A program made the translations under genes and the position numbers. From assembly GCA_020723325.1 (NCBI GenBank), contig DYJD01000004.1:124001-188000 (forward strand): a stretch of DNA of 64,000 nt, read 5' to 3'. The stretch comes from Desulfosudis oleivorans. GTDB lineage: Bacteria > Desulfobacterota > Desulfobacteria > Desulfobacterales > SURF-7. The notes beneath the pieces were generated by a model. It was not told the origin of the DNA, did not search any database, and worked only from the letters and a program-made list of their open reading frames with translations. Of this stretch, positions 42,865 through 57,056 are shown piece by piece (the first letter of the stretch is position 1; each line of letters begins with the position of its first letter).

Positions 42865-44250
42865 TTATCCTGTTGTTTCCGTCCCAGCGCTGTTCAACAG
42901 TTGTATTTCAATATTGCTCATGGGCAATCCGATCAGCCCCAAGGAAACCGCACTGGAATGCACGGTGAATACCACGGCCTCATGCAACCAGTGGTGCTGA
43001 ATATGTTCCTGCTGGGTGCCCTCGGCCACGGCGGCGGCAATCGCATAGTCGCCCCTGGGCATCAGCGGCATGCGAAAGGAAAAACTCGCCTGGAAATCCC
43101 TGCCGGCCGGAATCTGCAATTGTGAACCGATATATGTGAGATAGGTATTGTCGGCAAACAGGATTTGCCCCAACCGATCCTTTACCACAAAACCGGCAAT
43201 GGGATTGAGCAAATCCTTATTGGCCCGGCATTGAACATTCAAGGTCACCATTTCGCCACCCACCACCCATGCCAGACTATGCCCGCTTTCATCGCACAAG
43301 ATTACGGATGTTACCGTGGCCCCGCCCTTGCCGAATTGGGTCCTGTCCGGCATAAATGCAAACAATTCAATGTCGTTGCGATATGGCGTGGCATTGATGA
43401 AGTCTTGTCGCATATCCCGCGGCGGTCCCTGGTCCTTCCCGGCCGCATTCCTTTTTACAGCGGCCGGAGCCATGCTTGCTCCTTGCTGGGCCTCATAGCA
43501 TGCCGTAAGATAATTTGCCACGACATCTTTTGGCGCGCCGCACTCCTGAATAATGCCCTTTTCAAGTCGAATGGCGGTGTGGCAAAGGCTGGTCACCGCG
43601 CTGGTATCGTGACTGACGAAGACGATGGTTCCCTGCTCCATGAACCGTCGCAGAAAGCGCATGCATTTTTGAACAAAAAATGCATCGCCCACGGCCAAGG
43701 CCTCGTCGATGATCAGAATGTCGGCATCCACATGGGCTATGACGGCAAAAGCGAGCCGCACATACATCCCGCTGGAATAAGTCTTCACCGGCTGCTCGAT
43801 GAAATCACCGATGTCGGCAAATTCGGCAATGGCATCGAAACGAGCATGGATTTCCGCTGTACTCAGCCCCAAGACCGCCGCATTCATGTAAACATTTTCA
43901 CGGCCGGTGAACTCCGGGTTGAAGCCGGAGCCCAGTTCCAATAAGGCCGCCACCCGGCCGAAGGTCTCCACTGTTCCGCCGGTGGGCGACAAGGTGCCGC
44001 AAATAATTTGCAAGAGGGTGGATTTGCCGGAACCGTTGCGGCCGATGATGCCCACCGTCTCGCCCCGCCGAACCTCAAAACTCACATCCTGCAGGGCCCG
44101 GAACTCACGGTAGTACTGACGCGGCTGTCTCCCGGCCAGTCGCTGAAAGCGGGGAAAAACAAACTGTTTCAGACGGTCCCGGGGTGTGTTGTAGATCTGA
44201 TAGCCTTTACTGAGATGGGATACCCGGATGGCAATGGGTTCAGATGACAT
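42865..44250 (-). CDS. wzt: ABC transporter ATPase of polysaccharide export, with C-terminal Wzt domain
   Basis: The 461-residue protein (from ATG 44250) has Walker [10 protein letters not shown] (residues 70-78), the signature [12 protein letters not shown], Walker [10 protein letters not shown] and the switch His in FVSHDT. The last 150 residues are a beta-rich Wzt C-terminal domain ([13 protein letters not shown] to VVFTVHSS), which in characterised systems recognises the modified end of the finished glycan. The presence of this domain together with the methyltransferase/coiled-coil protein downstream suggests a chain-end-dependent export mechanism. The start overlaps the permease end by 11 bp. 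Confidence 0.93.
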
Positions 44251-45070
44251 CGGCAAACCCCTTGCGCGTTTTTTGAAACCAGGCAAAACCCAGCCAGGCA
44301 AAGGCCAAGGCCGCGATTGAATAGACCCCCAGGCCGGTCCAACCGGGCGCCCGTCCCCAGATGAGGACTTCCCGGGCCTGTTCAATAATAAAAGTCAGGG
44401 GATTGGCCATGAGCCAGGGCCGATATGCTTCCGGCAAAGAAGTAACGGGATAAAAGACGGGAGAAATAAACAAAAGGACAGCCGTGATGATCCCGATAAC
44501 CTGGCCCATGTCGCGGATATACACACCGACGGCGGCAAGGCCCCAGGACAAGCCGATGGTGACCATCACCAGGGGCAACAATACCAGGGGAAACAACAGC
44601 ACAGTCCAAGGCAGAAAACCGTTGAACAAATAAATCGCCGCCAGGAGCACCACCAGACTGACCAGGCTGTGGAACAGGGTTGCACCCACCACCACCACCG
44701 GCAAGATCTCCAGGGGGAAAACCACTTTTTTGACATAGTTGGCGTTGGCCAAGATGATGCCGGGTGCACGGTTGGCGGCTTCTGCCAGCAGGTTGTAAAC
44801 GATCAGACCGGCAAACAGTACAAGGGCGAACTGGGTCCTGGATTCCGCGGCCCCGATCCCCCAGCGCGCTTTGAAAACCACGGAAAAAACAAAGGTGTAT
44901 ACCGCCAGCATGAGAATCGGATTGGAAAACGACCATACCAATCCCAGGATGGAGCCGCGATAGCGGCCGATGACTTCCCGCTTGGTCATCTGCCGGATCA
45001 GACCACGGTTGCGCCACAAACAGGCGAATAACGCCGCAAAAGATGCTGGATGGGCTTGATGCGGGTTCAT
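44240..45070 (-). CDS. wzm: ABC-2 permease of polysaccharide export
   Basis: The 276-residue inner-membrane protein has six helices and the Wzm/TagG pattern: [20 protein letters not shown] near the N-terminus, [18 protein letters not shown], and [16 protein letters not shown] before ISPVFYPV. With the ATPase it would export a polyprenyl-linked polysaccharide across the inner membrane. It lies 14 bp after the radical SAM gene. Confidence 0.93.
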
Positions 45071-45084
45071 GGTTGATTAAAATG

Positions 45085-46056
45085 TCAATCCGTTAAATTG
45101 ATGGCGCCGCAGCCGTTGATGTCCAGTTTCAAACCCAGCGCCCTGGCCTGTTCCCGGGCGAATGCGATACAGATTTGCATCTCTTTTGTAAGCACTGGAT
45201 GAAAGGCATCCACATCCAGCACCACATGATGCACGCCCACCCGGCTGGAACGCTCTAGAAATGCAATGATTTCTCCGGAATCAGTATTGCCCGGAACCAG
45301 GATATATTTGGTGACCAGGGTTTTTCCGCCGGCCGCATAGTCGGCCAGATTTTCCCATACCGCCTCATACTGATCACCCTGTTTGAGTTTGCGATAGGTT
45401 TCCCGGGTGCCTGCATCCACGGAGCAGATGATGGTCAGGTTCGCAAGCGGGGTTTTAGCCAGGGTATGGTTGAATCTGGTGCCGTTGGTGGTCAGGGTCA
45501 CCCATGGTCCGTATTCCAAGATCAGTTGCAGCAAATCCCCGAATCCGGGCATCAGCGTGGGCTCCCCCCCTCCCCAGAAGACTTCCGCCTGGGGCGATAG
45601 GAATCCGCTTGATATAAACTGTCTGAAAACAGGCAACAAATCCACGGGCGAATGCCCGTATCGAACCTGCTGGTCATCATTCCACCAGGCAGTGGCGCAG
45701 CGTTCTTTTTGAAGATAACAATAGGTGCAATGAAGATTACAAGCAGTGAAATGACTCAGATTGACTTTGCGAAGTATGAAATCCCCATTGTCCCGCGGAT
45801 AGTTTTTCAACAATGGGCAACTCCGGCATTGTAACGCCCGGTCTGTATTCAGGGCCGCCGCCAGATCCGCCCTGGCGGACAAAAACCGCCCGATATCAAA
45901 TGTTCCCCCCTGGAATTCAAAGAGCAGCGGCCAGCCCAAATCCCCATGATGCAAGACACAACAAGCGTGCACGGAACGAGGCGCAAAAGCCAGACCATGT
46001 TCAATCCATTCACAGCTCAAGCGCGCATGTTTGCCGCTTTGCACAAAGCAATCCAT
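45085..46056 (-). CDS. radical SAM protein with an N-terminal SPASM-like cysteine domain
   Basis: The 323-residue protein has the catalytic motif CNLHCTYC (Cys106, Cys110, Cys113), WGGGEPTLMPGF and SVDAGTRETY. Unusually, about 100 residues precede this motif and contain Cys15, Cys32-Cys33, Cys77 and Cys80 in the spacing of a SPASM/twitch domain (CEWIEHGLAF, HACCVL, CRSCPLL), which normally lies at the C-terminus. The C-terminus here ends shortly after the barrel (NGCGAINLTD). Its stop is followed by the exporter permease, and its start codon shares a base with the upstream stop. Confidence 0.85.
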   Translation of the reverse strand: MDCFVQSGKHARLSCEWIEHGLAFAPRSVHACCVLHHGDLGWPLLFEFQGGTFDIGRFLSARADLAAALNTDRALQCRSCPLLKNYPRDNGDFILRKVNLSHFTACNLHCTYCYLQKERCATAWWNDDQQVRYGHSPVDLLPVFRQFISSGFLSPQAEVFWGGGEPTLMPGFGDLLQLILEYGPWVTLTTNGTRFNHTLAKTPLANLTIICSVDAGTRETYRKLKQGDQYEAVWENLADYAAGGKTLVTKYILVPGNTDSGEIIAFLERSSRVGVHHVVLDVDAFHPVLTKEMQICIAFAREQARALGLKLDINGCGAINLTD

Positions 46057-46923: not shown

Positions 46924-47922
46924 ATGTACTCTAATATGATGCGGCTTATTGCTTGTGCTTTTCTATTATTTTTAATTACTGTAACCTGGACTGCCGAACA
47001 GGCATTATGTTCTTCCCCGGAAAACTCCAAAACCGCAGAACAGTATTTTTTAGAGGCGGATGGATTTCTAAAAAATGGCCAACTCGATAAAGCAAAAGCC
47101 GCCTTTGATGCCGCTTCCCAAAAAAAACCGGATCTGGCCGGCAAAGCTCATTTTGCCATGGGAACCGCCTATGCCCGCGCCAAACAAATGGACAAAGCAG
47201 TGGCTGAATATGAAAAGGCTGCTGAACTGGAACCAAATGTCATGATGGTGCATCTGAACCTGGCCAATGCCTATCTGGCTGCCGGAAAGATTGAAAATGG
47301 TGTTGAAACCTTTAAAAAAATCGCCGAGATGGAACCCAAAGCAGCCTGGCCCCAATACAACCTGGCCAATGTCTATATTAATTTACAGCGCTATCCCGAG
47401 GCTGTTGCCGCTTACAAAAAAGCCCTAGAAATCGATCCCAACGAACCCATTGACGTACATTTCAATTTGGGCTTTGCCTACCAGCAAATGCGCGCTCCGG
47501 ATTTGGCCCTGGCCGAATACCAAAAAGCCATTGATAAAAACCCGAAGCATTATATGGCATACTATAATATGGGCCTGACCTATGAGCTGAAAAAGGACAA
47601 TGACCAGGCAGTCGCAGCCTATTACAACGCCCTGAAAATCAAGCCGGATTATGCCGAAGCCTTTGCCAATATCGGCTTGATTCATTACCGCCGGGATGAA
47701 TATCCCTTGGCCACACGAAATCTGCAAAAAGCCATGGATATCAAACCCAATCTTCCTGAAGCTCTTTTCGGCATGGCCCTGGTTTTCGACAAACAGGAAA
47801 ACTATGAAAAAGCCTGGGAATATACCCAGAAGGCCATAGCCAACGGCAGTGTCGTCGCTCAACAATTTATTGACGACCTCAAGAAGAAATTAGACGAGAA
47901 GACCAACGCGAAGGGCAAATAA
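46924..47922 (+). CDS. secreted TPR-repeat protein
   Basis: The 332-residue product has a signal peptide (MMRLIACAFLLFLITVTW, cut near EQALCSS) and about eight TPR units from residue 38 to 320, with typical lines such as NLANVYINLQRYPEAVAAYK and FANIGLIHYRRDEYPLATRN. It is probably a periplasmic or outer-membrane-associated scaffold. AAGGAG lies nine bases before ATG 46924. It is divergent from the Sel1-repeat gene, and the 127 bp between them should hold both promoters. Confidence 0.88.
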   Translation: MYSNMMRLIACAFLLFLITVTWTAEQALCSSPENSKTAEQYFLEADGFLKNGQLDKAKAAFDAASQKKPDLAGKAHFAMGTAYARAKQMDKAVAEYEKAAELEPNVMMVHLNLANAYLAAGKIENGVETFKKIAEMEPKAAWPQYNLANVYINLQRYPEAVAAYKKALEIDPNEPIDVHFNLGFAYQQMRAPDLALAEYQKAIDKNPKHYMAYYNMGLTYELKKDNDQAVAAYYNALKIKPDYAEAFANIGLIHYRRDEYPLATRNLQKAMDIKPNLPEALFGMALVFDKQENYEKAWEYTQKAIANGSVVAQQFIDDLKKKLDEKTNAKGK

Positions 47923-48182: not shown

Positions 48183-48629
48183 CTATTTGCGTTTTTCAAA
48201 TGGATTTTGGCTATGGGACATGAGAACCAAACGCCATTCGTCCTCCTCCAAAACCCAGGTTTCAGCTATTTGTATATTACTAATTTTTATTCCCATTTTC
48301 CGGGTGGTAAAACGAATTGTGGCCTTAGCGAATTTTTCTTCAGAAGCCATCTCTATTTTCTCAATAGCAAAATCAAGGACGTCTAAATTGGTTCGCCTTA
48401 AAAATTCATCCCGTGAAATTTTGCTCTGAGAATCAACCGAGGCCATTTCCCATACAATACCCCATTTGTTTTCCACTTTGGACTGCCAGGCCATACTCAC
48501 CCGCTCACTTAAACTGCTTTTAGGCCGGCCGGGCTGATGGGCGCATCCGCTTTGCAACAGGAATCCCCACCCCCAAAAAACCATTATAACTAAAACGTAT
48601 GGGTTAATTCGGCTGAACATTCGATTCAT
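48183..48629 (-). CDS. lipoprotein of unknown function, possibly NTF2-like
   Basis: The 148-residue product has a long signal peptide and lipobox (LQSGC, Cys29). The remaining 115 residues, with a first long helix (SERVSMAWQSKVENKWGIVW), FLRRTNLDVLDFAIEKIEM and paired strands ATIRFTTRKMG and ETWVLEEDEWRLVLMS, have the order of an NTF2-like alpha+beta fold, which I cannot confirm. It overlaps the selenoprotein gene by 26 bp and is probably made from the same mRNA. Confidence 0.65.
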   Translation of the reverse strand: MNRMFSRINPYVLVIMVFWGWGFLLQSGCAHQPGRPKSSLSERVSMAWQSKVENKWGIVWEMASVDSQSKISRDEFLRRTNLDVLDFAIEKIEMASEEKFAKATIRFTTRKMGIKISNIQIAETWVLEEDEWRLVLMSHSQNPFEKRK

Positions 48630-49665
48630 GGCGTCGGCTCTCGCTTTGATTCATATAGTCTATAAATTCTTGCGGGCTCATCTTCCGGAATTGCTCCACT
48701 TCTTCTTTCATCTTCTGTTCGCGCCGGAGTCGCTCCTCTTCATGTCGTCTGTATTTCTCCTGATCATATTGGGTCTCCAGACTCTTGTGCTCCAAGGATA
48801 CCTGGATATCAGCGGACAGTTCTTTCATTTCCCCTTCTGCCGCCGCGATTTTTTTCTTGCGATCCAGAAAGATGTTGATGATTCCGAGTTGCTTTCCCTG
48901 TCTGGTGCTTTTGAACAAGTAACGCTGCCCGATTTTCTCAGGGACTAGATCTGTAAAATAGTCATTGCCGACCATGGCAATATTGATCTCCGGGACAGCC
49001 TGCATGACCTCCAGCGTGTTTTGCCACCCGCTGTTTGATAAAAGCACCAGCAAATCCACTTGCGGGCCGATTTTCGCCGCCAGATCCTTTGCCGACGATA
49101 CAGGCGATTTTAGAGAAACGCCTTCCCTGTCCAGAATTTCGGACTTCAGCCCTTCCCCGCTTGCAATCCCGATTACGCCCACCCGCAACCCGCTGGAAAC
49201 TTGTTTGATAATATATGGTTGCCATAGCGGCAAGCCTTTTATCGCCAGATTGGATCCGATCAACAATGGTTTCAAACCGGCCGCCAGATTATTGAATGCG
49301 TCAAGACCGAACAGCAGCTCTCCTTCTGCAACGTTCAACACATCATATTTCATAGCCGTAATGGCCTTGGCCGCAAACTCGGCTTTCAGCTCCCCATCCT
49401 CCTGGGGCCAGAAAAAACTACCGAGATCCACCAGCAGGATATCTTTATGAGTATTCCGCAATTGTTGAATCATACTGGCCCTACGGGCCAGTCCGCCGGA
49501 GGCGCCTGACGCTCAACCTTCACAATTAATGGCACTGTGGGTGTCGCCGGTGTACAGAATCACCAGATCCGGCACCTTATCAGACCCATGACACATCATC
49601 GGCATAAAGACAATGATCATCCATATGAAGAACAGCATTCCACAAGACGTTTTTCGAAATTGCAT
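48604..49665 (-). CDS. UshA-like metallophosphatase-family selenoprotein (UGA read as Sec51)
   Basis: The frame begins at ATG 49665, preceded by GAGGTG, and has an in-frame UGA at 49515-49513 as codon 51; reading through gives 353 residues. The N-terminus is a signal peptide (MLFFIWMIIVFMPMMCHG), then LVILYTGDTHSAINCEG, Sec, ASGASGGLARRAS. Relatives of 5'-nucleotidase/UshA type have a Cys at this position in a CGC-like motif before GGLARRA, so Sec replaces Cys. Upstream of the UGA the D-x-H metal motif is intact, but the usual GD and N-H metal residues are changed (LGSFFWP, NVAEGELLFG), so phosphatase activity is doubtful. A charged coiled tail ends the protein. From memory, family models named UshA-like (seleno)protein exist. 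Confidence 0.85.
49474..49492 (-). promoter_or_regulatory. bacterial SECIS-like hairpin downstream of the UGA codon
   Basis: On the mRNA the sequence ACTGGCCC GTA GGGCCAGT forms a perfect 8-bp stem with a three-base loop starting G-U. The loop lies 28 nt after the UGA, within the roughly 16-37 nt spacing reported for bacterial SECIS elements, and has the G at the first loop position. It is part of the coding sequence (GLARRAS). Confidence 0.75.
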
Positions 49666-49698: not shown

Positions 49699-52134
49699 TC
49701 ATTCTACCGTCAAAGGATACAAATCAGCTCCGCTCAGGAGTTTCATATCATTACTGCCGAACAAAAACAGTCCGGCAATGGCCTGATTTACAGTGGTGTG
49801 TACATGAATCCAGGAAATACGGGCAATGGCAGCCTCATTCCAGATTGTTCGCGCTTCAAAGGCGGTTTTGGCAAAGGCTGATAGTTCAATGGCATGTATG
49901 GCCTCGGTGACGGGATTGCCTTCCGCGTCATAGGGTGTCAGCGTAACTATTGCTTTCTCCTGTCCTGCATTGAACAGGGCGATCCCGGTCCACCAGATAT
50001 TATCCGCTGCAATATGGGGAATGGTAAAACCGCTGCCGAGCTTCTTCCGCGCCATCAGCGGAAAAGAAGCGGAAGAAGCGCCTTGAGCATAGGTGAAATA
50101 ACCGGTTAAATCGCCCTGGCCTTGCAGAATCAAGGCCGCCTGATCCAGGACCGCCCCACTCAGATCCGGAAACAATTCCATGACCTTCAACACCTGTTTT
50201 TGATTGGGAGCGAATAAACGCGTTGCCCGATAAGTGAAATCGCCATTGGTCAGCAAGAATTCGACGCTGTTATCCATACCGGCCATATTCATCAGGGTGA
50301 TTTCCGTGACCCAAGGACTCGATCCGGCCACATGGGGCAAAACCAGGCAATCCCCGCCGGCGGATAAGGCATACATGGATTCCTTGCCCCCCAGCCGGTC
50401 GTTACTCCACTGAATAACCCCCTTGATTTTCTCAGAGGAGGTGATCATCACCCAGCCCTCGTCCACACTGGCATAAAATGGATTGTTGCTGGGCGTATAG
50501 GCCACCATCCCCGGACCTGGAATGGTAACCTGGGTCCGGCCGATTCGTTCTCCGCCGGCATTGTAATTTATCAATTCCGCGGTGGCGACGGTTTTGCTTT
50601 GGTTGATCAATCCCCAGGTGACATATTTGCGGGAATCAAACATCCGCGATGTATCCGGTACGATGATCAGGGTTTCGGCAGGTGTGTCGGCGAACCCGTT
50701 CATTTCGGCTTTGTTGTTGCCGCTGCCCAGATACAGCAAATCTATTTTTTCAGGGCTGATGATTTTCACGGAATGAATCAAACCTTTTTCATGGAGCCTG
50801 ATATTCATGTTGCCGAGCAAAAGGGTTTGTTTTTGGCCCGGTGCCAGGGTTAAAGGGCCTTGAATGGTCGAAAGGGGCTTGTTGGCTGCGTCATAGGTGG
50901 TAACCACAATTGAATCGATCTGATTCTGGGAGGTGTTGGTAAGCGCAAATCCGTCCCAGCCCTGATCTCCATAAGTTTTTGGCACCCAGAATGAATGCTC
51001 GGCGACCAGATCATAGTTCAAATTATAGACCGCCCCCTGCTGATAATCCGCCATGGAAATGGTTAAAGTATATGGCGGTCTCTCCGCCGTTATCGCGAAT
51101 TCCAGCGTGTCGCTGAACGTATTCTCGTAAACCGTCTGTTGATCCGCATCCGTAATCAGGACATGTTTTGATTCATTGGGCTGATCAAGACCCTGCAGAG
51201 TGAAAATCAGTTTGTCGCCGGGATTGCATTCCAACCTGTAAACATCCGGGTTCAACAATACCAGGTTGTAATTACCGGGCCAAAGGGTTGCCGGTTCCGG
51301 ACTTTCCAAAAAATCATCCTGATGTCGGGCCAGGGTTCGAACCACATTATAATCCAGATAGGGGCTGGTGGGCTTGGCGGCAAGCGGCAGAAAGATGGAC
51401 TTTGGATGCAGGCCGACACTACCGCCGGTCCATTCGCCGCCGATAATGACATCGCCGGCCAAGAACAGGTCGTACGTAAAGCCGGCAAATTCCTCTCTGG
51501 TGCCTTGAAAATCCGGCTGCACGTGATCATCGGCGTAATACACCAGGCAGGTGACACTTAATCTGCCCCCGGCCACAACCGTTGTTTGCATCTCGTACTT
51601 ATATACGGGATAAAACCAGGCTTCGCTGGGACCACCCAGGTCAGCCACAAAAGCCTTGCCCTGATCCTTGATATAGGTCAACAACCATTCATGAAAGACT
51701 TTGGGATCACTGCCCGAATCCCTTATAGCCGGATCACTGCCATGGCAGGCGGTCAGCAGTCCTTTCTTATCACCCACACGAAAGATAATGTTGTTGATGG
51801 ATGAAGGTTTGAAATCTATTGCTTCAAAGGCAGCGGCGGCGGCAAAGGCGTGACATTGGCCATACCAAGAAAGGGCGTCCGGGTCGTAAAAATTTTCCAA
51901 CTCCCATTGGGTGGCCGCTCCCGGGTAGCGGCCGGTTGTATATAATTCGTATTTTTCAAGAGGCGCCGGTCTGCCCCACGGGTGGTACCCATTGGCAAGA
52001 CCGCCGCTCTGTGAAGGCCACCAGTAACCGGACCAGGGAATAACTTGGGCCCGGGCCGTATCATATTCCGCGTAAACTTTTGCTGCGAAAACAAAATCGA
52101 CCAACAACAAAATAACGCATACCATTTGAATCAT
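49699..52134 (-). CDS. large secreted protein with transglutaminase-like N-terminal domain and repeated beta domains
   Basis: The 811-residue product has a signal peptide (VCVILLLVDFVFAAKVYA). Residues 35-290 resemble the transglutaminase/elicitor-type papain-like fold: GYHPWGRPAPLEKYELYT, then WYGQCHAFAAAAAF with candidate nucleophile Cys94, and later TYDLFLAGDVIIGGEW. Residues 290-400 are a beta domain. From 400 on there are at least three related beta modules, each with a Trp-containing VPHIA/LPHVA-like start (for example IPHIAADNIWWTGIALFN) and an NxTxxTYDAxGNP strand pair. The catalytic assignment is tentative; it could crosslink or bind envelope proteins. The selenoprotein gene follows by 33 bp. 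Confidence 0.7.
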   Translation of the reverse strand: MIQMVCVILLLVDFVFAAKVYAEYDTARAQVIPWSGYWWPSQSGGLANGYHPWGRPAPLEKYELYTTGRYPGAATQWELENFYDPDALSWYGQCHAFAAAAAFEAIDFKPSSINNIIFRVGDKKGLLTACHGSDPAIRDSGSDPKVFHEWLLTYIKDQGKAFVADLGGPSEAWFYPVYKYEMQTTVVAGGRLSVTCLVYYADDHVQPDFQGTREEFAGFTYDLFLAGDVIIGGEWTGGSVGLHPKSIFLPLAAKPTSPYLDYNVVRTLARHQDDFLESPEPATLWPGNYNLVLLNPDVYRLECNPGDKLIFTLQGLDQPNESKHVLITDADQQTVYENTFSDTLEFAITAERPPYTLTISMADYQQGAVYNLNYDLVAEHSFWVPKTYGDQGWDGFALTNTSQNQIDSIVVTTYDAANKPLSTIQGPLTLAPGQKQTLLLGNMNIRLHEKGLIHSVKIISPEKIDLLYLGSGNNKAEMNGFADTPAETLIIVPDTSRMFDSRKYVTWGLINQSKTVATAELINYNAGGERIGRTQVTIPGPGMVAYTPSNNPFYASVDEGWVMITSSEKIKGVIQWSNDRLGGKESMYALSAGGDCLVLPHVAGSSPWVTEITLMNMAGMDNSVEFLLTNGDFTYRATRLFAPNQKQVLKVMELFPDLSGAVLDQAALILQGQGDLTGYFTYAQGASSASFPLMARKKLGSGFTIPHIAADNIWWTGIALFNAGQEKAIVTLTPYDAEGNPVTEAIHAIELSAFAKTAFEARTIWNEAAIARISWIHVHTTVNQAIAGLFLFGSNDMKLLSGADLYPLTVE

Positions 52135-52191: not shown

Positions 52192-52911
52192 CTATGGCCG
52201 TATCAAGTAGGAACGCCGCACCGGCGTTTCTTCAAAAAGCCACCAGTCCATGTTGTCGGCCCATAATTGCCTAACCATCAGGCGCGCATCTTGCCGGATG
52301 CTGATCAAGCGCAGCCGCGTGGCTGCAATTCCCGCAGGCAGGAGCGCATCGGTTGAGATCATCCCCTGGGAACGCGCCTCAGCCAAGGATAGGTATTCGA
52401 TGCTGCGGTTCAGCTTATATCCAAAAACGCTCCCACCGGCATTTTTCTTTACAACCACATCCGTAAGCTCTGTATTTCCCGGATTCAGATCATCATATGG
52501 GAAGGGATGTCCCCAGGATAGAACAATTGGAGCCCCGGGCTGCTGGCTGTTCAAGGATTGGCCGGCAGATACATCCAGGACTTCCGATAGAAGGCCGTCC
52601 GGCGTATAGGTTAGTTGATAGGCCGGCTGCTTATCGGAAAGATCCGCCCATATCTTGATTAGACGTTGCCTTGAATCCTGCACGCAAAACCATTGAATGG
52701 TCTGGCGCCAGGTTTGATCCACAGGATCTCGGTATTGGGATTGTATCTGCCGTCTGGTTTGCTCTGCCGGTTCCCCCCCCGACAGGGGCAACGACCAGCC
52801 GAAAATCAAAAAAAGTATGAACACAGAATACGCAAAGGGCGTTGCCCTAAATTTTCGGGTTTGCGTCTTGATCACGGGCAAGACCTTTTGAATGGTGTGT
52901 TTGTTGCTCAT
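52192..52911 (-). CDS. secreted protein of unknown function
   Basis: The 239-residue product has a late, hydrophobic N-terminal signal (FAYSVFILFLIFGWSLPLSGG) after a basic stretch, so it is exported or anchored. The mature part contains TWRQTIQWFCVQDSRQRLIK, YQLTYTPDGLLSEVLDVS and ATRLRLISIRQDARLMVRQL. No domain recognised. It lies between the S-layer-like and transglutaminase-like genes on the same strand, after the terminator, and probably opens the unit with them. Confidence 0.6.
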   Translation of the reverse strand: MSNKHTIQKVLPVIKTQTRKFRATPFAYSVFILFLIFGWSLPLSGGEPAEQTRRQIQSQYRDPVDQTWRQTIQWFCVQDSRQRLIKIWADLSDKQPAYQLTYTPDGLLSEVLDVSAGQSLNSQQPGAPIVLSWGHPFPYDDLNPGNTELTDVVVKKNAGGSVFGYKLNRSIEYLSLAEARSQGMISTDALLPAGIAATRLRLISIRQDARLMVRQLWADNMDWWLFEETPVRRSYLIRP

Positions 52912-53075: not shown

Positions 53076-55004
53076 TTAGTACTTCCATTCAGCCTTGTTA
53101 AGTCTGACGTTGGCGAGTGTACTGGCCTGACCATTAGCAACATAGCCGGTACTGTCGGCACCGTTGCCCATCATGCCGAAACCGCCGGCTGAGGCGAAAT
53201 TGCAATCCACGATGATGTGGCTGCGGGTATTACCCATCACGCCGCCGCCTGTGCTGGACACGGTGGTCCAGGTTAGGGCCAACAGATCGGCATTGGACAG
53301 GGTGACCATGTCACCGGCGGCCAAAGAGGTACCGGCAGAGCTGAACGAATCACCGTCATCTTCATATACGTAAATGGTGTACGTACCGGCTGCGGAGGAC
53401 GGGTTGCAGAAGCTCATGCCGAACCACCAGCCGTCGTTGCTGGCGGCTGCGAAGGGAGTGGCATAGGGGAACAGCAGCGAAGTAACCGGTGTGGCCGACG
53501 GACAGCTTGAAACAAACTGGGCCAGTACACGGGTGCCGGTGAAGATCGTGCCGCAGGGCAGTCTCTGCAGGGTGACCGTGGCGGTAACCTGGTTGCCGTT
53601 GGTGAAAGATGCCGGGGAGTAAACAACACCGGGCAGGTCCACTTCCAGCAGATTAGAGGTATCGATGCTGCTGAATGAAGCACTGGTGAGGGTCTTCCAC
53701 TGTGATCCGGCCGCAATCGTACCGCAGCCCACGCCGGTGGCGGCGGTGGTGGAGGCCACGCCTGTTTCCGTGGTGATTGTATAGGCACCGCCGGTCAGGT
53801 TGCCGCTTGCGCCAGCGCCCACAGCATGCGCGTTACAGTAGGTCGTGTTGCCGGAGGGATATGCATATACCCCGGCGGAACTGCTTCCCCAATATGCGCC
53901 GTTGCCGGAAATGGTCAGCACCAGTTTGAAATTGTCACCGTTGTTGTAGAAGGTGCCGCTGGTGTTGCTGATCAAGACCTTGTTGCCGGTAACCGTGGAG
54001 GCGGTGAAAGTATTCGGGCTCACGTCCGTGCAGTAACCGGTCGCAGCCTCATAATCGAAGGTACAGGTGCCGGCCTGACCGCCGGTCAGGCTCACATAGC
54101 CGTATTCATCCGGTTTACATTTGGCCAAGCTGATGGCTGTTGCGGAGATGCGATGTGCGATCTGCGGGTTGGTGGGCAGGAAGGTCAGGAAGTTGCTGCC
54201 GCTGACGCCACCGGAGTTGATGCTGATGTTCACTGTCTGTGAGGTGTAGGCTGTGCCGTCCACACTGATACAGTAGGCGTTGTCCCAATCGGCTCCGCCG
54301 GAGGTCAAGGTGTCGCCGGCGTCTTCACCGTAGATGCCGTAGCCCACACCGGTGGAAACGTCGGTATCCTTGTAAGCCCACACGCCGGCAATACCTTCGG
54401 TGCCGTCATGTTTCTTGGTGTCCAGAATCTTGATCTGGAACTGGGCGCCCGCGCTGACCGTAATCGTGGTGCCACCGTTGTAGTTGGCCGCGTTGTTCCA
54501 GGTGGTGGTATCATCCATATCATAGGCGCCCAGGCGGATGCGTTGGGTGCCGGAAGTACCGGTCACGCGGAAGAACATGCGGCTTGTGCCCGCAACCGTT
54601 ATGTTGCCGTTAAGACCATCGCCGGAGACCGTGTCTTTCACTTTCCAGATACCGCGGTCCAATTCCTCGCCTGCGTCGGCCGGAACTGCGGCGGCATTGA
54701 TGGTGCCGTTGAAACCGCCGGTGGCGCTGGGAACAGACGTGGTGGCCGTGCCGATAATCACATAATCAAGATTCCGGCAAAGGGTTACGCCCTGGGGCAG
54801 GTCCATGGTCCACCAGTCACCATCCTTGATGATCGTGCCGGCGTCAAAAACAAAGGTCAACGAACCGGCTTTTTCACAAGCGCCGGTTTGGGCCGTGATG
54901 GGCTCGGAGTTGGCAGTTACGGTTACGTTGAAAGCAGCCATGGCTCCGGTGCCGAAAGCAAGCACCATGGCCAGCGCCAACAGAAGGGTACACGTTTTTT
55001 TCAT
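53076..55004 (-). CDS. S-layer-like major surface protein candidate
   Basis: The 642-residue product has a classical signal peptide (KKTCTLLLALAMVLAFGTGAMA) and a mature part rich in Thr, Gly, Ser, Ala and Asn with about 20 Cys, almost no Lys/Arg and many short beta strands (LTSGGADWDNAYCISV, NGDNFKLVLTISGNG). A strong AAGGAGG, a leader hairpin, its own terminator and a narrow codon choice (ACC, GGC, CTG) indicate high expression. I read it as a secreted, abundant surface-layer-like or matrix protein; no named domain is certain. Confidence 0.75.
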   Translation of the reverse strand: MKKTCTLLLALAMVLAFGTGAMAAFNVTVTANSEPITAQTGACEKAGSLTFVFDAGTIIKDGDWWTMDLPQGVTLCRNLDYVIIGTATTSVPSATGGFNGTINAAAVPADAGEELDRGIWKVKDTVSGDGLNGNITVAGTSRMFFRVTGTSGTQRIRLGAYDMDDTTTWNNAANYNGGTTITVSAGAQFQIKILDTKKHDGTEGIAGVWAYKDTDVSTGVGYGIYGEDAGDTLTSGGADWDNAYCISVDGTAYTSQTVNISINSGGVSGSNFLTFLPTNPQIAHRISATAISLAKCKPDEYGYVSLTGGQAGTCTFDYEAATGYCTDVSPNTFTASTVTGNKVLISNTSGTFYNNGDNFKLVLTISGNGAYWGSSSAGVYAYPSGNTTYCNAHAVGAGASGNLTGGAYTITTETGVASTTAATGVGCGTIAAGSQWKTLTSASFSSIDTSNLLEVDLPGVVYSPASFTNGNQVTATVTLQRLPCGTIFTGTRVLAQFVSSCPSATPVTSLLFPYATPFAAASNDGWWFGMSFCNPSSAAGTYTIYVYEDDGDSFSSAGTSLAAGDMVTLSNADLLALTWTTVSSTGGGVMGNTRSHIIVDCNFASAGGFGMMGNGADSTGYVANGQASTLANVRLNKAEWKY

Positions 55005-55483: not shown

Positions 55484-56953
55484 TCAAGGCCCATCCGCGG
55501 CATCAGGCGGCAGGGCGATATCCGCCCATACCGGCCTATCCTGCGGGCATACCCATTGCTCAACCGTTTCATTTTGCCACTGAACCGTAAGACGCGTGTC
55601 CCCCCGGCCCGAAGCCAGACTGAATTCACCGAACCGACCGGTTTCCACAAGCAAATCCCGGGCAGGACTGTCAACAAGTAGTGCATGTCCCGCCAGTCCT
55701 TCGCCAGGCGAATAAAGACCATCGGCATTCTGATCCACATAGATAACCCCCAGGATCACTTCATCCCGAGGACTATCCGCCGGAGTGATCGACAAATCCA
55801 GGGTTGCCATATAGGCGACTTTCGGCAACCCATCCACCATTACCTTGCCGAAGGCAATCGCCAGGCCCATTTCGCTGTACTGGTCCTGAAAAAACTGCGA
55901 TGCCGTCATATTGGTTATAGTTCTGAAAATTTCACCGTTAAACATATAGTGGTATAATTGTAGAGCAGCGGCCTGGGGCGACAAGAATTCGTCACTCAAC
56001 ACGATCCCAAGCACTTCGCCGGTTTTCGCAGGATCATAGGAACTCCCCTCAAATCGCGAAGCAAAATCCTTGCCGTCCGATGTTCCGGAATCCAGGACCA
56101 GACTGCCTAGCATATCCTCGGCATGGGCTCTGGCGATGACCGTCAACTCCGGCGACTCGACCAATGGAGCGTTGCCTACCAACCAGGATTGCAGTCCGGC
56201 ATTATCCTTGAACTGCGGCCAGGCGGCCTCGCGGATTGCAGCCTGGGGATATACCCGGGCCTGATTCAATAAAAGCTTCAATTCCGATTCGATAAGCGCT
56301 TTGAATTTTTGGGAAGAATATCCGGTATCCGCTTGGAGAGCAAAATCACAAACCGCCAGATACGCATTGGTTTTTCGGCCGTTCAGAACATATTTGCCGG
56401 CAACATAACCGATGCCGACGGCCCTGAATTCCGGATTCAAAATCGTACGGGAGTTCCGGCCGGAGGGCTCCAGCTCCGCCTTCAACATATTGCTGAAAAG
56501 GATGGTTACGGCGGTCTTGGCCGGGAAAAAATTCATAAAAGTGACAATGCCGAGGGATTCCCCTCCGGCATACGGCTCAAATCCGCTTTGACGCATACGT
56601 GCCAAAGGCCCGATACCTTCTGGTGAAATCCGTGACAAATAGCCTCTGTCCAACATATCCGCCGCATGCTTCAAAGCGGAATCCACTAATGCCGGATGCG
56701 GTGCGAGCGGTGCCAGGCCATGTAAAAATACATCCGCCAGCTCGGGCGATTGCCCGAGCACTTGATCCGGATCCATGCCCAAATCCACCACTGCCTGACG
56801 GGGATTCTGCCTGGCCTTGTTGATCATTTCCAGCAGCAAGCCCTCCTCCTCGTTGAAAAGGGCCTCGGCCGACTCCGTGCCAAAAGAGCTGATCGGAGTG
56901 AGCCATATCAGCATGGTGATCAACAGAGTCGCTATGGAAAATCCCGTCTTCAT
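55484..56953 (-). CDS. secreted protein with two CAP-like domains and a C-terminal SdrD B-like domain
   Basis: The 489-residue product (ATG 56953, AGGAG upstream) has a signal peptide. Residues 30-205 form a first CAP-like domain (LEMINKARQNPRQAVVDLG, ALKHAADMLDRGYLSRISPEG with His and Glu, AGGESLGIV). Residues 215-395 form a second copy (LLLNQARVYPQAAIREAAW, IARAHAEDMLGSLV, TGEVLGIVLSD). Residues 405-485 are a short beta domain starting VIYVDQNADGLYSPGEGLAG, an SdrD B/CNA B-like calcium or linker module. It is probably surface-exposed; the reaction is unknown. Confidence 0.8.
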   Translation of the reverse strand: MKTGFSIATLLITMLIWLTPISSFGTESAEALFNEEEGLLLEMINKARQNPRQAVVDLGMDPDQVLGQSPELADVFLHGLAPLAPHPALVDSALKHAADMLDRGYLSRISPEGIGPLARMRQSGFEPYAGGESLGIVTFMNFFPAKTAVTILFSNMLKAELEPSGRNSRTILNPEFRAVGIGYVAGKYVLNGRKTNAYLAVCDFALQADTGYSSQKFKALIESELKLLLNQARVYPQAAIREAAWPQFKDNAGLQSWLVGNAPLVESPELTVIARAHAEDMLGSLVLDSGTSDGKDFASRFEGSSYDPAKTGEVLGIVLSDEFLSPQAAALQLYHYMFNGEIFRTITNMTASQFFQDQYSEMGLAIAFGKVMVDGLPKVAYMATLDLSITPADSPRDEVILGVIYVDQNADGLYSPGEGLAGHALLVDSPARDLLVETGRFGEFSLASGRGDTRLTVQWQNETVEQWVCPQDRPVWADIALPPDAADGP

Positions 56954-57056
56954 GGCTCCTGACAAACAGCAAAAGACATGCCACAGGATGTTTTCCATTC
57001 CGAACGAAATTCAAAACATCCTGGGGCTTGATCATTGTAGCTGCGGCTCTAAAAAT

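Follow-up and report, generated by a model that had tools for sequence, protein, structure and literature searches.

A gene on the reverse strand of the window, the 64,000-nucleotide stretch of Desulfosudis oleivorans DNA analysed in this work, almost certainly encodes an UshA-like selenoprotein in which the UGA at 49515-49513 specifies selenocysteine (Sec). The call was supported by the sel genes of the genome, by the presence of Sec or Cys at the UGA position in relatives with homology across the codon, and by a bacterial SECIS (bSECIS) hairpin found in Sec-type but mostly not in Cys-type relatives. A previous sequence-only reading had named a probable selenoprotein at this place. That call is supported; absent from it were the facts that the kind is already catalogued (NF041198, NF049981) and that the gene is part of a cassette conserved elsewhere. 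Coordinates of the gene, its elements and its neighbours are collected in Table 1.

Table 1. Features of the putative selenoprotein gene and its cassette (window positions; strand; basis or remark)
Feature	Position	Strand	Remark
UshA-like gene, full length, predicted selenoprotein	48604..49665	-	353 aa with Sec51; sequence and read-through translation
Domains of the UshA-like protein			leader ~1-28; UshA-like metallophosphoesterase-fold ~30-285; C-terminal helices 291-349
In-frame UGA, codon 51, predicted to be read as Sec	49513..49515	-	aligned Sec/Cys in relatives
Putative bSECIS hairpin, 8-bp stem	49474..49492	-	GUA loop at 49484-49482; folding, recoding, comparison
TPR protein, convergent, cassette end	46924..47922	+	Pfam; tblastn comparison
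NTF2-like small lipoprotein (by eye)	48183..48629	-	start overlaps 3' end of the UshA-like gene by 26 nt
811-aa secreted protein, transglutaminase-elicitor domain	49699..52134	-	Pfam PF16683, E 2e-10; conserved neighbour
239-aa secreted protein	52192..52911	-	conserved in cassette; no family match
642-aa secreted Cys-rich protein	53076..55004	-	7 Cys invariant in 3 homologues
CAP-domain secreted protein	55484..56998	-	Pfam PF00188; conserved

Read-through translation bore out the earlier proposal that the frame is interrupted by a single internal UGA, running otherwise from 49665 to a TAA terminator at 48606-48604. The ATG at 49665 was accompanied, as had been claimed, by a Shine-Dalgarno motif (GAGG 7-10 nt 5') and by codons for a hydrophobic leader. 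A mechanical table-11 ORF list started the gene at ATG 49473, the point at which automatic callers had been expected to begin, giving a product of 289 aa that lost the leader and the first loop. The motif of the window protein was CxxU (C48-E-G-U51; NCEGU), whereas most relatives presented the CxU/PCGU order.

The column of the UGA contained Sec or Cys in 9 of 9 rows of one alignment (A1) and in 21 of 21 rows of another (A4). Across 62 aligned members the residue was U in 41, C in 20 and R in one, so that the conserved Cys recognised earlier near GGLARRA was present as Sec/Cys in 61 of 62 relatives; the sole exception seen was a heme-fused protein with Arg (L068, G168:C168; DPSGR). UGA occurred at the same aligned residue in a paralogue (L025) and in L011, L031, L013, L027, L079, L090 and L093, and Cys in L010, L026 and others; homologues with neither residue at position 51 and terminating at this codon had been named beforehand as grounds for rejecting the call, and the alignment returned both UGA-bearing and Cys-type relatives. 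The tree grouped the window protein with L079 (CxxU, UGA) and L010 (Cys) with support of 100/99, again in a second tree, and Sec was kept or regained across many branches of the family. In the phylum sample, 224 of 395 genomes held a relative and, among the matches listed, most had one internal TGA. Homology on both sides of the UGA is the decisive evidence. The paralogue L025 (G000:C61:3936-4853), located in the same genome in another gene context, represents a second UshA-like selenoprotein, with a PCGU motif and most metal residues kept.

Downstream of the UGA, a hairpin of 19 nt (49492-49474) was formed by ACUGGCCC / GUA / GGGCCAGU, with a loop of 3 nt. Sequence and folding confirmed the perfect 8-bp pairing reported from the letters, the stem starting 20 nt and the loop 28 nt past the UGA. 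Folded alone it reached -14.9 kcal/mol, and equal stability was obtained in 0 of 200 shuffles. The rules for bSECIS elements call for a loop of 3-9 nt, a stem of 4-16 bp, a G within the first two loop positions, a distance of 16-37 nt from the UGA and an MFE <= -7.5, and all these constraints were satisfied (PMC13188914). By itself the hairpin was only modest evidence for recoding, because in 11 genes nearby 3.6% of the codon positions had a comparable hairpin at <= -7.5, and 160 of 5000 (3.2%) synonymous versions of the 17 codons in question produced one as stable; in part it simply follows from the codons for GGLARRA. Sec members displayed a median of -8.1, with 20 of 31 at <= -7.5 kcal/mol, whereas the median was -3.5 in Cys members, with 2 of 21 at that level (Mann-Whitney p 3.6e-6, an optimistic value because the members share kinship); this comparison counts perfect stems only and underscores members with bulged stems (L077, L054 group). 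When nine Sec members were compared, both-sided changes appeared at 4 of the 8 stem pairs. The search of Rfam gave no match to the hairpin, which says little because bacterial SECIS elements are very diverse.

A search of the genome for selA, selB, selC (tRNA-Sec) and selD, the absence of which had also been set as a refuting result, found the complete set. The selD gene (L045, G000:C52:221071-221997), which has its own in-frame TGA, lies on the contig of the window ~48 kb from the selenoprotein gene. Two SelB-like proteins were present (L001, G000:C92:43990-45882; L002, G000:C1:57856-59757), with 30.6% identity over 644 residues, and the only tRNA-Sec gene in the genome adjoins the copy on C1. 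From sequence, comparison and machinery, we propose that SelB and Sec-tRNA would read the UGA as Sec with the help of the downstream hairpin. An ordinary stop at this UGA, or decay of the gene, with what follows being a remnant or a frame that starts at ATG 49473, is scarcely credible: degeneration of the metal site has gone further in the window protein than in its closest relatives L079 and L010, and the species is represented by one genome (a single assembly of 113 contigs, the relatives being mostly MAGs), but conservation of the UGA in other genomes (shared by L025, L079, L011, L031, L090, L013 and L027, with Cys in L010 and L026) already makes this unlikely, and 302 open codons follow the UGA, the hairpin is retained and covaries, and the Sec machinery is complete.

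UshA-like selenoproteins of COG0737 with a CxU motif were described from the GOS metagenome in 2008 (PMC2398784) and recent reviews list them (PMC9312934, PMC13188914), so that the selenoprotein in the window is of a known kind. The window protein has the UshA domain and the Sec/Cys before GGLARR by which UshA-like (seleno)proteins of COG0737 type are broadly recognised. Its nearest NCBIfam model was NF041198 (UshA_like_PCGU), with 150.6 bits over profile positions 6-332 and under the cut-off of 275, followed by NF049981 (UshA_like_Sel_2), with 52.3 bits and under the cut-off of 140; the SoxB model TIGR04486 gave 28.2 bits, under its cut-off of 550. With NF041198 it has in common the domain, Sec at the same residue and the GGLARRA segment, but it differs in lacking the C-terminal tetraheme cytochrome region, in having CxxU instead of CxU/PCGU and in the loss of metal residues. 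With NF049981, given as CxxU (PMC13188914), it shares the spacing and the short protein but not the score. All heme-less relatives tested were under the NF041198 cut-off (130-257), and heme-fused L054 scored 450. Judged from these profiles, the window protein is a divergent UshA-like (seleno)protein without the fused tetraheme cytochrome domain. It stands for a class of selenoproteins that escapes curated models because the heme domain is lacking; ordinary gene callers, moreover, cut the genes of this class short. In mostly open-access texts, searches for the function of UshA-like selenoproteins, and for UshA together with selenocysteine or cytochrome c554, found selenoproteome surveys and no function; selenoprotein combined with transglutaminase and Desulfobacterota likewise gave such surveys only.

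An AlphaFold2 model built from 14 sequences had a pLDDT of 88.3, with values under 50 at residues 50-53, and the loop of Sec51 is thus placed with low confidence. Structure matches were the catalytic domains of CD73, UshA, SoxB and NadN (Z ~29-33; ~31-33 for the first three). The catalytic-domain fold is shared with UshA/CD73 5'-nucleotidases and cyclic-nucleotide phosphodiesterases (Z 29-33), whereas, compared with UshA/CD73, the window protein is without the catalytic His, most metal ligands and the substrate-/nucleotide-binding C-terminal domain, and carries Sec in its first loop. SoxB thiosulfohydrolase presents the same fold (2wdc, Z 31.7) and a weak profile match, but the window protein lacks the dinuclear metal site, and no SoxYZ partner was seen. 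Only D41 and H43 remained of the metal site; in the alignment S83, G115, N211 and N234 stood at the positions of D84, H117, H217 and H252, a numbering (D41 included) that we take to be that of E. coli UshA and that rests on motif alignment. Pfam gave no match to a C-terminal substrate-binding domain in the window protein, which ends after two helices. Among the 62 members D41, D84, H217 and H252 each varied, several relatives kept all four, and the canonical GNHE His was almost always gone; the alteration of metal residues pointed out earlier therefore applies to the window protein and, unevenly, to the whole family. Since these residues vary while Sec/Cys stays, the comparison argues that the selenol/thiol is the conserved functional group of the family.

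The cassette followed the order CAP, Cys-rich, 239-aa, transglutaminase-elicitor-like, UshA-like Sec, NTF2-like lipoprotein and TPR, with 33 nt between the transglutaminase-elicitor-like gene and the selenoprotein gene downstream of it. By tblastn it was found whole or in part in G020 (L103), G354 (L109) and G091 (L108) and around L079 and L090, with some variation in order and strand. The NTF2-like lipoprotein, named by eye, had no Pfam match and, when searched in the taxonomic family of the window, was found in this genome only; NTF2-like homologues adjoin UshA-like genes, and L012 consists of an NTF2-like segment fused to an UshA-like protein. In four homologues of the transglutaminase-like protein a Cys-His-Asp set was recognised by eye. 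Its gene occurred 16 times, in 15 of 395 phylum genomes, and had an UshA-like neighbour in 13 cases; two of the three exceptions lie at contig ends and the third, in G386 (L129), is without such a neighbour. The linked UshA-like proteins numbered 17 (4 found from the UshA side), with degenerate metal sites, 16 of them having Sec and one Cys; nine were heme-fused and a tenth was truncated by the end of its contig; all ten stand on a branch far from the heme-less one of the window. A single clade of cassette-linked proteins was considered and dropped, the tree showing two distant branches, heme-fused and heme-less. Because linked members of both forms occur on distant branches, the linkage is with the Sec domain and not with the heme domain. 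The fixed place of an UshA-like selenoprotein in a surface-protein cluster, by a transglutaminase-like enzyme, appears to be undescribed, and the linkage (13/16) offers a genetic handle on partners and substrates.

In several branches of the family the protein was joined to a tetraheme domain of the Cytochrome_C554 family (Pfam E 4e-14 to 5e-17), and a thioredoxin-domain gene adjoins L010, the Cys-type close relative; these may be regarded as associations with redox chemistry. The resolving Cys is not conserved, some Sec members (L013, L027, L050, L060) having no Cys shortly before Sec. Cys-type proteins L081-L091, mostly from Omnitrophota, have long C-terminal extensions with CxxC segments, by eye reminiscent of thioredoxin; these segments were not used as evidence because Pfam found no thioredoxin domain in the C-termini of the four scanned.

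All these features taken together suggest that the window protein is probably an exported Sec-dependent redox protein built on a dead phosphoesterase scaffold. The leader would direct its export, and Sec51 would lie in the loop that follows the first strand, next to what was once the metal site; Cys48 precedes it by three residues. Sec51 would be the reactive group, probably paired with Cys48 in a selenenyl-sulfide or attacking a thiol or disulfide substrate, and the protein would act as an extracytoplasmic redox protein and not as a phosphatase. Several other branches carry their own electron-transfer module, the tetraheme cytochrome; no electron donor was visible in the heme-less window protein, whose partner would have to be a separate protein. 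The substrate may be sought among surface proteins because the conserved cassette consists of them, candidates being the 642-aa Cys-rich protein or, in the transglutaminase-like protein, the Cys of the active site. A service in cell-surface protein assembly is put forward tentatively. Equally speculative is the idea that Desulfobacterota and their relatives possess an as yet undescribed system of cell-surface assembly. In it a secreted transglutaminase-like enzyme might act jointly with an NTF2-like lipoprotein and an UshA-derived selenoprotein, heme-less or tetraheme-fused, and Sec would govern the redox state either of cysteines in surface proteins or of the active site of the transglutaminase. 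If true, surface cross-linking would possibly be tied to extracytoplasmic electron flow. A phosphatase site that decays freely while Sec/Cys stays, with tetraheme cytochrome fusions in several branches, also suggests a reason for the presence of Sec.

SoxB-type chemistry, in which Sec would attack S-S or S-sulfonate bonds on small molecules or carriers (sulfur relay, polysulfide, thiosulfate), is a rather unlikely alternative: SoxB gave a top structural match (2wdc), was among the better profile matches of several relatives (104 bits for L090), and a DsrC-like gene, identified by eye, adjoins L026, but the window protein itself matched SoxB weakly (28 bits), no SoxYZ-like carrier was seen in the cassette, and the cassette is made up of surface proteins and not of sulfur enzymes. 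In human CD73 the corresponding loop region contains Cys residues. The loss of the metal site and the location of Sec in the loop before GGLARRA would also fit a non-catalytic structural or binding protein in which Sec/Cys merely stabilises the loop; we consider this unlikely as well, since Sec is costly and unexpected where a structural Cys suffices, and it has been kept or regained in many branches, some fused to tetraheme cytochrome. A working metallophosphoesterase or nucleotidase, with Sec as an accessory or metal ligand, is very improbable in spite of the 5'-nucleotidase/UshA fold, the D41 and H43 of the window protein and the four residues retained by several relatives, because S, G, N and N stand at the positions of D84, H117, H217 and H252, the substrate-binding domain is absent, and most cassette-linked relatives have lost D41 and D84 and kept Sec.

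D41 and D84 have also largely disappeared from the heme-fused UshA-like Sec proteins encoded next to the transglutaminase-like gene (L130-L137, L119 and L126; family f94 and G139), yet PCGU is present in all of them. Downstream of the cassette, positions 42865-46056 of the window hold genes for a Wzt-type polysaccharide ABC transporter and a radical SAM protein, with a permease-like ORF neighbouring the transporter.
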